Assembly (NCBI RefSeq): GCF_928097925.1
Contig: NZ_CAKMRI010000001.1
Coordinates: forward strand, 310,001-374,000
Length of the DNA stretch: 64,000 bases
Reading direction: 5' to 3'
Source: Mediannikoviicoccus vaginalis
GTDB taxonomy: Bacteria; Bacillota; Clostridia; Tissierellales; Peptoniphilaceae
The position numbers and the translations under genes were made by a program. Below, in pieces: positions 36,489-40,777 of this stretch. The notes below the pieces were generated by a model. The model made no database searches. It saw nothing but the letters and a program-made list of their open reading frames with translations, and was not told where the DNA came from. The first letter of the stretch is position 1; every line of letters starts with the position of its first letter.

Positions 36489-37544
36489 ATGAATATTTCA
36501 AGTGATAAGAACAAAAACGAATCGATACAAAACGCTTTTAAGCATATTGAAAAGCAATATGGTAAAGGTGCGGTTATGATTTTAGGTGAAGCACCTAAAC
36601 AACAAATAGACTCTATTTCTACAGGTGCAATTAACTTAGATATAGCACTTGGTATTGGTGGTATACCTAGAGGAAGGATCATTGAAATTTATGGACCCGA
36701 ATCTTCAGGTAAGACTACTCTTGCCCTTCACATTATAGCAGAGGCACAAAAAAAAGGTGGCATTGCTGCATTTGTTGATGCAGAGCATGCCCTTGATCCT
36801 ATCTATGCTAGAAATTTAGGTGTAAATATAGATCAACTTATTGTATCTCAACCAGATACAGGAGAACAAGGACTAGAAATTGCAGAATCACTAGTTAGAA
36901 GTAGTGCCATTGATGTCGTAGTTGTAGACTCTGTAGCAGCCTTGGTACCAAGAGCAGAGATAGATGGAGATATGGGTGCTACACATGTTGGTCTTCAAGC
37001 AAGGCTTATGTCTCAAGCACTAAGAAAACTAGCTGGAGCTATTTCAAAAAGTAATACATCTGTAATATTTATTAATCAGCTTAGAGAAAAGGTTGGAGTT
37101 ATGTTTGGAAACCCAGAAACTACAACAGGTGGTAGAGCTCTTAAATTCTACTCTTCAGTAAGAATGGAAGTTAGAAGGGGAGAGGCTATTAAACAAGGTG
37201 AAGATATTATTGGAAATAGAACAAGAGTAAAGGTAGTAAAAAATAAAGTAGCACCACCTTTCAAACAAGTTGAATTTGATATTATGTATGGACAAGGAAT
37301 TTCAAAGTTAGGAACAATTCTCGACATGGCTTCCGATGTTGATATAATAAAAAAAGCTGGAGCATGGTATTCTTACGGAGATGAAAGACTCGGCCAAGGT
37401 AGAGAAAATGCTAAAGATTATTTAGAACAAAATCCAGATTTACTCAACGAAATAGCTGAAAAGGTATATAGCCATTTCAATATAGCTGGTCATGAAGTTG
37501 AAGAAGCTACACTGGATTTTAGTACAGATATAGAAAATGATTAA
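36489..37544 (+). CDS. recA: Recombinase RecA
   Basis: RecA forms filaments on single-stranded DNA, drives strand exchange and triggers LexA self-cleavage. Walker A is GPESSGKTT and Walker B is [24 protein letters not shown] and the C-terminal domain are intact in 351 residues. GGAGAG precedes the ATG. No LexA box is visible in the preceding 180 bases. Confidence 0.99.
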
Positions 37545-37579: not shown

Positions 37580-38539
37580 ATGAAATTTTTATTTTTTACA
37601 GACACTCATATTAGAGCTTCAAATCCATCATCTAGAAAAGATGACTATATAGAATCTTTAAAGCTTAAATTTGAAGAAGTTGGTGAAATTGCAAAAGAAA
37701 ATAATGTAGACTATATTCTACATGGCGGAGATCTATTTGATAGGCCAGATGTCCCAGTAAGAATAGTTGGCGCTTTTGCAAATATTTTAAATTCTTATAA
37801 CAAACCAATCTATATTATTTCAGGTAATCATGATATATATGGACATAATCCCAAAACAGTTGAAAGGTCTATGTTAGGACTTTTAAATCAAATTAATTTT
37901 GTAAAATTAATTAATTTTCAAGAACCAATTGTACTCACAAAGGATAATTTAAAAGTACAGATTTCAGGTGTTCCATATATTTACGATATAGAATCCAACT
38001 ATAAGGATTATTATTTTCCAACAAGACTGGAAGGCGTAGATTATCATATAGTCATGATTCACAGTTTTTTAATAGATAAACCATTTATCGACTCTATTAG
38101 TCATACCTTAATTGACGAAATAAAGGACGTAGATGCGGATATAGTTCTAGCAGGACATTATCACACAGGTTTTGGTGTAAAGCGATTTAATGACAGATAT
38201 TTTGTCAATCCAGGATCTTTAGCAAGAACATATAACTCAACTGCAGAAATTAATAGAATTCCAGCTGTTACTATTATTGAACTTTCAAAAGAAGAATTAA
38301 GAATAGATGAGATAAAATTAAAATCTGCAAAAAAGGGCGAAGACGTATTTAATAAAAGTGAAGATAGATATAAAATAAAAAATGAACAGATTGAAAACTT
38401 TAAGCAACTCATCAGAACAAGTGGAAACTTGGAAAACTATAATACACTTGAAATTTTAAAAGAAATTTCAAAGGATAAGAACTTTCCTAAACGTATAGTA
38501 GATGAAGCTATTAGAAGGCTGGGAGAAGTAAATGAATAA
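37580..38539 (+). CDS. SbcD/Mre11-like metallophosphoesterase
   Basis: This calcineurin-like phosphoesterase has the full dinuclear-metal set: DTH at 8-10, GGD at 49-51, GNHD at 82-85, then MIHSF and AGHYHTG. The DGGDLFDRP-type second motif is the exonuclease-like form of SbcD/Mre11 and YhaO proteins. At 319 residues it has a C-terminal extension of about 100 residues, in the position of the capping/ATPase-interaction region. The next gene overlaps by 8 bases and encodes the N-terminal half of a Rad50-like ATPase, so this is probably the nuclease partner of that complex. The exact substrate is unknown. Confidence 0.85.
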   Translation: MKFLFFTDTHIRASNPSSRKDDYIESLKLKFEEVGEIAKENNVDYILHGGDLFDRPDVPVRIVGAFANILNSYNKPIYIISGNHDIYGHNPKTVERSMLGLLNQINFVKLINFQEPIVLTKDNLKVQISGVPYIYDIESNYKDYYFPTRLEGVDYHIVMIHSFLIDKPFIDSISHTLIDEIKDVDADIVLAGHYHTGFGVKRFNDRYFVNPGSLARTYNSTAEINRIPAVTIIELSKEELRIDEIKLKSAKKGEDVFNKSEDRYKIKNEQIENFKQLIRTSGNLENYNTLEILKEISKDKNFPKRIVDEAIRRLGEVNE

Positions 38540-39839
38540 CGATATTAAGATAGAATACATTGAAATAGAAAACTTCCAATCACATTCACATACAAAACTT
38601 GAATTTGATGAAGGTGTAAATGTCATAATAGGACCTTCAGATAGTGGCAAAACAGCAGTTATTAGAGCTATGAAGTGGATCTTCTTTAATGAGCCATCTG
38701 GTACGGATATTATAAAAAAAGGAGAAACTGCGGCTAAAGTTACCTTGAAACTTAACACTGGATTTAAGATTATTAGAGGAAGAGACAAAAGTAAAAACTA
38801 TTATGAGCTAGTAACTGAGGACGGCGAAGTTCAAAGATTTGAAGGTTTTGGATTAAATGTGCCACAAGAGGTAATAGATATAACAGAAATGAATAAAATT
38901 GATCTTGGAAATATTAAGATGTCACTAAATATTTCAGAGCAATTGGAAAGTCCTTTTCTAATTACAGATAGCCCTTCAATTAAAGCAAATGCCCTTGGGA
39001 AATTAGCTGGTGTTGACATTATAGATAAGGCATTAGGAAATTTATCCAAAGATATCTACGAGATAAATAACGATAGAAAGTCAATTGAAAAGGAAAGAAA
39101 AAACCAAGAAAGTTTTTTAGAAAGTTTTAGGTATTTGGATGAAGAAAAGACTAAAATAGAAAGACTTGAAAATATTTTTCATCAAGTTGATGAATATAAA
39201 TCTAAACTCAGTATTTTAACAAACTTAGAGAAAAAACATACAAACAATTTAGAAAAAACAAATGAAACAAAAGAATATTTAAAAAAGTTTAAAAATTTGG
39301 ATGAACTTTCTATTTTATATGAAAAGCTTATTTTAAAAGAAAATAATCTTAAAATTTATTTGAATTTAAATAATAGGTTAGTATACACCGATTCGAAAAT
39401 TAAAGAATTAAATTTATTTTTAAAAAAAGTTGACACTGATAAAGTTTATAATATTTATTCTAAGAGTTTTGAAATATATAAAAATCTAGAAAAGTACAAT
39501 TTAGCTTACAAGAATTATACTAATATTACCAAACAGATAGGCCAGTTGGAAAATATTTTAAAAAAATATCCCGATACAGAACAATTAGATAAATTAGTAT
39601 TAGAGCTTTCAGATTTAAATATAAAAAAAGAAAAAATGGAAAGTTTAAAAGTTAAGTATGATCACATAAATCAAAGGTTAAACGAAGGAAATAAGTATAT
39701 TACTAAGTTAATTTCTAACTATAGAGCAGCTGTTAATACTTATATAGAACTTTTAAAAGAAAGCGGAACATGTCCTATATGCTATAACAAAATAGATGAT
39801 AAACATATAGAGAGTATACTTAAAGAATTAGAGGTTTAA
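38532..39839 (+). CDS. N-terminal half of an SbcC/Rad50-like ATPase with zinc hook
   Basis: The protein begins with an ABC-type N-lobe (IEIENFQSHSHTKLEF, Walker A GPSDSGKT at 34-41). From about 170 to 410 it is a long charged coiled coil. It then reaches C414-P-I-C417, a Rad50-type zinc hook, and stops 18 residues later. There is no signature motif or Walker B in this chain, so it cannot hydrolyse ATP alone. These elements are found in the gene at 40088-40744. The length (435) and the stop just after the hook point to a split of the usual single-chain SbcC at its apex. It overlaps the phosphoesterase gene. Confidence 0.85.
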   Translation: MNNDIKIEYIEIENFQSHSHTKLEFDEGVNVIIGPSDSGKTAVIRAMKWIFFNEPSGTDIIKKGETAAKVTLKLNTGFKIIRGRDKSKNYYELVTEDGEVQRFEGFGLNVPQEVIDITEMNKIDLGNIKMSLNISEQLESPFLITDSPSIKANALGKLAGVDIIDKALGNLSKDIYEINNDRKSIEKERKNQESFLESFRYLDEEKTKIERLENIFHQVDEYKSKLSILTNLEKKHTNNLEKTNETKEYLKKFKNLDELSILYEKLILKENNLKIYLNLNNRLVYTDSKIKELNLFLKKVDTDKVYNIYSKSFEIYKNLEKYNLAYKNYTNITKQIGQLENILKKYPDTEQLDKLVLELSDLNIKKEKMESLKVKYDHINQRLNEGNKYITKLISNYRAAVNTYIELLKESGTCPICYNKIDDKHIESILKELEV

Positions 39840-39841
39840 AA

Positions 39842-40087
39842 ATGGAACAAAATACAGATTATAATGCTAAATTAAATGAATTGAAGAACAAATTAGATGT
39901 TGCAAAAGCGAATAAAACTAAAGCAGAAGGTATGCTTGAAACTTTGAACAATAATAAAGAAGAAATTATTGTTTCCATCAGAGAAATGGGAATTGAGCCT
40001 GAAGATCTTGAAAATGAAATATTGAACTTACAAACACAAATAGATAGTTTACTATTTGAAGCTGAAAAGTTATTAGCAGAGGAATAA
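39842..40087 (+). CDS. Small coiled-coil protein of the split SbcC-like cassette
   Basis: This 81-residue, highly charged protein is predicted by eye to be helical, with heptad-like Leu spacing broken once by GIEPEDLEN. It resembles a segment of the returning coiled coil of Rad50/SbcC. AGAGG lies before its ATG, two bases after the previous stop. Its TAA stop is followed directly, in the same frame, by the ATG of the next gene. It could be a separate subunit or the front part of a longer protein interrupted by that stop. No family recognised. Confidence 0.7.
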   Translation: MEQNTDYNAKLNELKNKLDVAKANKTKAEGMLETLNNNKEEIIVSIREMGIEPEDLENEILNLQTQIDSLLFEAEKLLAEE

Positions 40088-40744
40088 ATGTTAGAATTTA
40101 ATTATGATAATCTTAAAAATACATTCATAGATAAAAAAAACAAATATTATCAAGCTCTTGGAGAAAAGAAATCTATTGAAAATAATTTAGAAAGATTAAA
40201 AGATAATCTTAAAAAATTAAATGAAGAATCAGAAGACCTGATACTTGTGGATACACTTTTAAAAGAAACTGCAGATTTTTCACGTCTACAATCATCGAAA
40301 GAGATAGAAGCAATCGTAACCACATGTTTAGATTTAGTATTTAATTCAAAAATGGAGTTTAAAATTGAGTTAAGTCAACTTAGAGGAAAAAATTCTGCGG
40401 AGTTTTTTATAATTGAAATGGATGAAGATAAAAAATATACTTACAAAATAGAGGATACAAGAGGTGGGGGAGTGATAGATATACTTTCACTTGCACTTAG
40501 AATTGCATTTATATTAAAAATTCATCCTTCAATAGAGGGCCCAATTGTCCTTGATGAACCTGCAAAACATGTTAGTGATGACTATGTCTTCAATATAGCA
40601 GATTTTATTAAAAAGATATCTGAGGAATTTGGAAAGCAAATAATTATAATTTCTCATAACGAACATCTTGCCTCTATAGGAGATAAAAGTTATAAAATAC
40701 ACAAAGAAAACCTAAGTTCTATAGTAGATGAACTTCAAATGTAA
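40088..40744 (+). CDS. C-terminal half of an SbcC/Rad50-like ATPase
   Basis: Residues 1-65 are coiled coil. The rest is an ABC C-lobe with the signature-like DTRGGGVIDILSLALR (123-138), Walker B PIVLDEP (152-158) and the H-loop IIISHNEH (186-192). Walker A is absent and is supplied by the gene at 38532-39839. The GGGVxD..S.ALR form of the signature differs from the LSGGE of canonical SbcC and recalls RecF/SMC-like and phage repair ATPases. It lies in the same frame as the preceding small gene, with only a TAA between. AGAGG lies before the ATG. Confidence 0.85.
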   Translation: MLEFNYDNLKNTFIDKKNKYYQALGEKKSIENNLERLKDNLKKLNEESEDLILVDTLLKETADFSRLQSSKEIEAIVTTCLDLVFNSKMEFKIELSQLRGKNSAEFFIIEMDEDKKYTYKIEDTRGGGVIDILSLALRIAFILKIHPSIEGPIVLDEPAKHVSDDYVFNIADFIKKISEEFGKQIIIISHNEHLASIGDKSYKIHKENLSSIVDELQM

Positions 40745-40748
40745 CAAC

Positions 40749-40777
40749 TTGACTTTTAGTCGTGAAAACCTTATAAT
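40749..40777 (+). promoter_or_regulatory. Sigma-A promoter of rny
   Basis: TTGACT (40749-40754) and a perfect TATAAT (40772-40777) are spaced by exactly 17 bases, starting four bases after the split-SbcC cassette ends. Confidence 0.9.

Follow-up and report, generated by a model that had tools for sequence, protein, structure and literature searches.

The standard teaching on heads of the ABC/SMC type is that a single chain folds back to form them. Can such a head be built from the products of separate genes? This question is raised by the interval between recA and rny of Mediannikoviicoccus vaginalis, which lies in a stretch of 64,000 nucleotides of contig NZ_CAKMRI010000001.1 (hereafter, the window). 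A first-pass annotation, made from sequence alone, had read this interval as a cassette encoding an SbcD-like nuclease and an ATPase split at its zinc hook, with a small coiled-coil gene between the two halves. That description held when open reading frames (ORFs), motifs, and profiles were inspected, and we asked what kind of machine these genes might encode.

Four genes and their products

The ORF list shows that the recA–rny interval consists of four intact, co-directional genes, which we refer to as M, N, S, and C (Table 1). S and C each have their own AGAGG ribosome site, closely 5' of the start. The position of the cassette between recA and rny was confirmed, and so was a promoter-like site for rny that begins four bases past the stop codon of C, the latter by consensus match only and in a search that returned 26 matches vs. 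29 expected in the region. The SOS box GAACN4GTTY has five matches in the window, none of them 5' of recA, which is not above chance.

Table 1. Coordinates in the window of the cassette genes, their motifs, and the flanking features
Feature	Position	Strand	Evidence
recA, directly 5' of M, 35-base gap	36489..37544	+	
M, Mre11/SbcD-type metallophosphoesterase, 319 aa	37580..38539	+	ORF, Pfam, PDB profile search, model
N, Rad50 N-terminal half, 435 aa (N-lobe, long coiled coil, C-terminal zinc hook)	38532..39839	+	
Walker A GPSDSGKT (N residues 34–41)	38631..38654	+	Motif search
Q-loop EQLESPF (Q137 invariant in 22 sequences)	38937..38957	+	Motif search, alignment
Zinc-hook CPIC near N chain end (C414, P415, and C417 invariant)	39771..39782	+	
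S, 81-aa coiled-coil protein, predicted helical hairpin (turn GIxPExL)	39842..40087	+	
C, Rad50 C-terminal half, 218 aa (descending helix, C-lobe)	40088..40744	+	
ABC signature GGGVIDILSLALR (C residue 126), in place of Rad50 LSGGE	40463..40501	+	
Walker B IVLDEP (C residue 153), then D-loop	40544..40561	+	
H-loop ISHNE (C residue 188)	40649..40663	+	
Promoter-like TTGACT-17-TATAAT, for rny	40749..40777	+	Consensus match only

The profile search that the first-pass annotation had suggested as a check was run, and it tied M to Mre11/SbcD, N to the Rad50 N-lobe plus hook, and C to the Rad50 C-lobe. For M, 1) Pfam gives a Metallophos match (2e-16), 2) the metal ligands D8, H10, D51, N83, H84, H161, H193, and H195 are all invariant in an alignment of relatives, and 3) a profile built from relatives retrieves Mre11/SbcD structures from the PDB. 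The 39 top structural matches of the M model are all Mre11/SbcD, with Z scores of 21 to 26, the closest being Mre11 (Z 26, 2.4–2.5 Å across about 240–250 residues). The nuclease domain ends at approximately residue 250, beyond which only helices are predicted, at lower confidence. No capping domain is visible in the model, which places helices 289–300 and 304–318 at the C terminus, for which there are no Rad50-binding data. The NCBIfam SbcD model also matches M, below its cut-off.

N matches Pfam AAA_23 (2e-15) and, over residues 401–434, Rad50_zn_hook (6.5e-5), and its profile retrieves from the PDB both the Rad50 N-lobe and the Rad50 hook (1l8d/6zff). The CPIC motif begins at residue 414 of this 435-residue chain, with 18 residues beyond its last Cys. 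Walker A and the Q-loop, within an SMC-type N-lobe, are invariant in 22 sequences, and the hook in N is invariant too. C gives a weak Pfam SMC_N match, its similarity to SMC/Rad50 models is confined to their C-terminal parts, its profile retrieves the Rad50 C-lobe from the PDB, and its Walker B, D-loop, and H-loop are invariant in the alignment of relatives. Two features expected of Rad50 are not met. First, the signature is GGGxxDxxS in 164 of 172 C halves and SGG[EQ] in none of the 172, which fails the LSGGE/Q-type feature; the signature serine of ABC proteins is replaced by glycine, and it is conceivable that ATP hydrolysis differs as a result. Second, the NCBIfam models for Rad50 and SbcC (TIGR00618) match only below their curated cut-offs.

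S, when compared alone with PDB sequences, finds only generic coiled coils. It is present in nearly all cellular loci and in about half of the viral loci described below, where the N arm has a median length of 286 aa with S vs. 200 aa without it (p 3e-6). Longer N arms alongside S fit the idea that S is part of the arm, but this test was not corrected for relatedness.

To model the ATPase, the Caloramator locus L089, in which the stops between N, S, and C are in frame, was taken as a read-through chain with an unpaired alignment of 112 proteins. In this N-S-C model, both lobes are mostly above a pLDDT of 90, S folds into a helical hairpin, and an 84-residue helix opens C. There is one head over residues 1..782, similar to the Rad50 structures 3av0 (Z 29.6) and 3qku (Z 29.5); SMC heads match it equally well, with Z reaching 32. 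The model thus predicts that the N-lobe and C-lobe form one Rad50/SMC-type head, with the caveat that a joined chain favors assembly. It had been claimed that neither half forms a nucleotide site alone. That the two halves share one ATP site is supported by the joined-chain model and by the natural fusions presented below but is not shown.

The split across genomes, phages, and fusions

N and C were found in an identical set of genomes, i.e., 23 of the 41 related genomes. A survey of recA–rny loci, which had also been suggested as a check, revealed the same genes in the same order in the 22 relatives whose loci were fetched, with recA-M-N in 22/22 and an unbroken recA-M-N-S-C-rny run in 17/22. 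Comparison with the same-genus relative Lagierella massiliensis gives dN/dS values of 0.08 (M), 0.13 (N), 0.07 (S), and 0.06 (C), which shows that all four genes are under purifying selection. Since the 22 relatives keep the same genes and order, and since dN/dS values are as low as 0.06–0.13, a chance reading is excluded.

Among the named genomes that were scanned, those of Tissierella, Finegoldia, Peptoniphilus, Caloramator, and Fonticella, as well as of Natroniella, Halonatronum, Thermosediminibacter, Tepidanaerobacter, and Desulfovirgula, carry the cassette, and those of Acetivibrio and Pseudobacteroides carry the C gene. The variant is present in 65 of 398 sampled Bacillota genomes, with C being a gene of its own in 62, and its distribution within the order is sporadic. 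The split is thus genuine and ancient, and in many families of one order it is fixed between recA and rny. The first-pass annotation had seen a fixed system rather than a recent insertion. The fixed locus held, but the split variant is also carried by phages, prophages, and megaplasmids, and it is not special to this locus. Because of these mobile carriers, a viral origin stays open.

The two halves are separate almost wherever they occur. N and C are kept apart in 148 of the 151 loci bearing both, and the other 3/151 lack arms; the defining feature of a single-chain Rad50, both lobes and both arms in one protein, is not met. N stops shortly past CxxC in 70/72 viral loci (8–24 residues from the start of CxxC, median 17) and in 66/68 cellular loci. 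Six genomes of the Acetivibrio-Pseudobacteroides type carry C after folD, usually before rny, and have the M-N-S operon at another locus. Since C is unlinked from M-N-S in these genomes, it must act in trans. In the 133-kb record of Microbacterium phage Magritte, N is found at 93.8 kb but C at 0.3 kb. The relative frames of N, S, and C vary freely, with all three in frame in 2 of approximately 64 cellular loci.

A single intact frame in relatives had been named as the observation that would refute the split. A single-chain form does exist in one family, where three genomes (G373, G621, and G682) encode a natural M-N-C fusion, a chain of 684–700 aa that lacks CxxC and S and is nearly devoid of coiled coil. 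In a tree of C halves, these fusions are nested in a supported group of split proteins, that of Desulfovirgula among them. The simplest reading is that the fusion is secondary, although it sits on a long branch in a tree without a fixed root. Since this single chain has neither coiled coil nor hook and falls within the clade of split forms, it does not count as a refutation of the split. In several phages, M is fused to N and C is separate. The natural M-N-C fusions show that the parts belong together.

Relation to SbcCD and to catalogued families

A search of the window genome, which is 98.3% complete, for a normal single-chain SbcC, the last of the suggested checks, found none, only weak matches of the SMC/RecF/RecN type. 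The split form occurs in 23 of the 41 relatives and a full-length SbcC in 12, with an overlap of 1; in a class-wide sample of 291 genomes, the numbers are 21, 123, and 1, the overlap being the same genome. Genome G010 carries both forms, and several near-complete genomes have neither. Exclusivity yields a Fisher p of about 1e-4 in each sample. These counts are not independent, since the recA tree leaves only two supported pairs, with which significance is unreachable. In SbcC-bearing relatives in which both genes are readable, recA adjoins rny with no cassette between them, the gap being mostly 18–494 bases and once 1340. The split form seems to replace SbcCD, with the reservation that the exclusivity counts are not phylogenetically independent. 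As a separate observation, the window genome also has an AddA-like helicase-nuclease, which scores below the family cut-off.

Like SbcCD in Bacteria and Mre11-Rad50 in Archaea and eukaryotes, the cassette encodes a nuclease and a coiled-coil ABC ATPase with a CxxC hook, the genes are adjacent, and the folds are the same. Unlike in these systems, 1) the ATPase is spread over three genes and cut directly past the hook, 2) the signature is GGGxxDxxS, 3) the nuclease has no visible capping domain, and 4) NCBIfam cut-offs are not reached. The P. furiosus Rad50 catalytic domain (1f2t and 1ii8), whose two chains form one head, one being picked up by the N profile and the other by the C profile, is a truncated laboratory construct without hook or arm, i.e., an engineered counterpart of the natural split. 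T4 gp46/gp47 and PHROG 77/100 are phage Rad50/Mre11 homologues, with weaker matches to N, C, and M, and belong to a different sequence family. The gp46 protein of T4 is one chain.

Parts of the variant had been catalogued before. PHROG 16465 (exonuclease) and PHROG 15167 (ATPase) are the same families as N and C (E 7e-73 and 1.5e-48, respectively, with most of each protein covered), examples being gp32 and gp35 of Bacillus phage vB_BboS-125, but they are filed as unrelated phage families and are not recognized as the two halves of Rad50. Fusions of Mre11 to a Rad50-like part have been reported in viruses, plasmids, and some bacteria (Yoshida 2011, PMC3175470), and those of Anaerostipes and Bacillus phage 0305phi8-36 were noted to be without one P-loop segment (PMC3175470). 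These fusions are single chains, and the missing segment was not traced there to a separate gene. We found no described split Rad50 in the open-access literature that was searched, which included neither preprints nor subscription papers. The claim of an undescribed variant therefore mostly held, with the qualification that the PHROG families and the remark in PMC3175470 had already catalogued parts of it without their being understood. In all likelihood, this is a new variant of the Mre11-Rad50 machine, for which three Rad50 features fail: the single chain, the LSGGE signature, and the curated cut-off.

Proposed complex and rival explanations

Our preferred interpretation, which we consider likely, is that the products of the cassette form an obligate multi-chain Mre11-Rad50 complex. 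The genes and their motifs, the separateness, conservation, and co-occurrence of the parts, the complementarity with SbcC, and the natural fusions are direct observations. There is no experiment, and assembly, stoichiometry, ATP-driven nuclease activity, and the role of S are all inferred. N would provide Walker A and the Q-loop as well as the ascending coiled-coil arm with its zinc hook, while C would provide the signature, Walker B, the D-loop, the H-loop, and the root of the descending arm. The S hairpin would most likely pack on the arm, completing its hook-proximal part. One N and one C would make one ABC head, ATP would dimerize two such heads, one zinc ion would join two N hooks, and two M nucleases would dock on the arm roots via their C-terminal helices, giving M2N2S2C2. 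This complex may process or tether DNA double-strand ends and hairpins ahead of RecA loading, taking the place of SbcCD where a cell has none. A bolder reading, which is possible but no more than that, starts from a hook at a free chain end and an arm whose remainder S and C contribute in trans. The arm could then open between chains, with S acting as a latch and with a DNA gate beside the hook, which would open while the heads stay joined.

The rival that survives best, although we find it unlikely, is that the cassette is not housekeeping repair but a phage-derived anti-phage or anti-plasmid effector, similar to Lamassu or Gabija. In its favor, PADLOC gives weak matches to the ATPase parts of LmuB and GajA, and the family is common in phages, occurs on megaplasmids, and is sporadic within the order. 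However, these matches cover only the shared ABC head, there are no partner genes, the nuclease is of the Mre11 type, the recA-adjacent locus is fixed across many families, and the cassette is complementary to SbcC.

Two further rivals are very unlikely. One is that frameshifting, stop readthrough, or joining at the RNA level restores a single Rad50 chain, as might be suspected because S and C of the window are in one frame with a single stop between them and because two relatives have N, S, and C all in one frame. Against this, frame relations and gaps are variable, with only those 2 of about 64 cellular loci entirely in frame, S and C each have their own ribosome site, and C is at another locus in six genomes, as N and C are far apart in Magritte. 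The other is that C is a shared C-lobe completing other ATPases too, i.e., a promiscuous ABC module, for which its lack of linkage to M-N-S in Acetivibrio-type genomes could be cited. However, N and C never occur one without the other, a search of the window genome with N as a query found no further lone N-lobe, and fusions link C only to M-N. Finally, a pseudogenized or assembly-broken SbcC, which might be invoked because canonical SbcC is one chain, is all but excluded by a break directly past the hook in every lineage, dN/dS values of 0.06–0.13, and catalytic motifs that are all invariant.

If the multi-chain reading is correct, an apparent gap is filled, since many Tissierellales genomes would otherwise score as being without SbcCD. 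Throughout an order and in many phages, the genes of the two lobes have been kept separate by evolution. Were the bolder reading true, a DNA-encircling Mre11-Rad50 could load or release DNA through a gate on the hook side, and the separate C-lobe would make assembly of the ATPase a control point. The split form, together with the armless and hookless M-N-C fusion, makes the purpose of the coiled coil and hook, ring opening, and the minimal Mre11-Rad50 testable.

Relatives with both, neither or a possibly damaged system

Only one relative, G010, combines the split cassette with a single-chain SbcC, which is 921 aa long and adjoined by an SbcD-like gene. Both the split form and SbcC are missing from the near-complete relatives G018, G022, and G031, which might reflect either a third solution or a real absence. 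The C gene of genome G015 has in-frame stops in its opening portion and is undamaged beyond that; this could be due to a frameshift, an error in sequencing, or an incipient pseudogene.

Duplicate copies, a probable prophage copy and plasmid relatives

Two Bacillota genomes, G398 and G436, carry two copies of the split system, of different clades (L237-L240). Since the C-half of genome G703 (L236) is identical to that of viral contig L157, the G703 copy probably lies within a prophage. Relatives of the C-half (26-35% identity), mostly annotated as hypothetical, were also found on non-mobilizable plasmids of 70-720 kb from Paenibacillus, Brevibacillus, Geobacillus, and others (matches H10-H18).

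Fusions and an inserted gene

Several phages encode M-N fusions with C as its own gene, which may be why one P-loop segment was apparently absent from some of the Mre11/Rad50 fusions in the 2011 survey (PMC3175470). Natural Mre11-RadN-RadC fusions, found in genomes G682, G373, and G621, lack both the coiled coil and the CxxC, and could be the smallest Mre11-Rad50 known to date.

In Bacillus phage vB_BboS-125, a gene for an AP2-domain protein, gp33, lies between N and S. This protein is conceivably a homing endonuclease, and insertions like this one may have given rise to the Rad50 split.

Loci and coordinates of the features described
Feature	Locus	Coordinates	Length (aa)
SbcC with adjacent SbcD-like gene, G010	L242	2114-6040	
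C gene, G015	L040	5040-5699	
gp33, vB_BboS-125	L241	5907-6479	
M-N fusions, viral contigs	L135, L136, L143, L147, L171		707-799
Mre11-RadN-RadC fusions	L229, L230, L231		684-700
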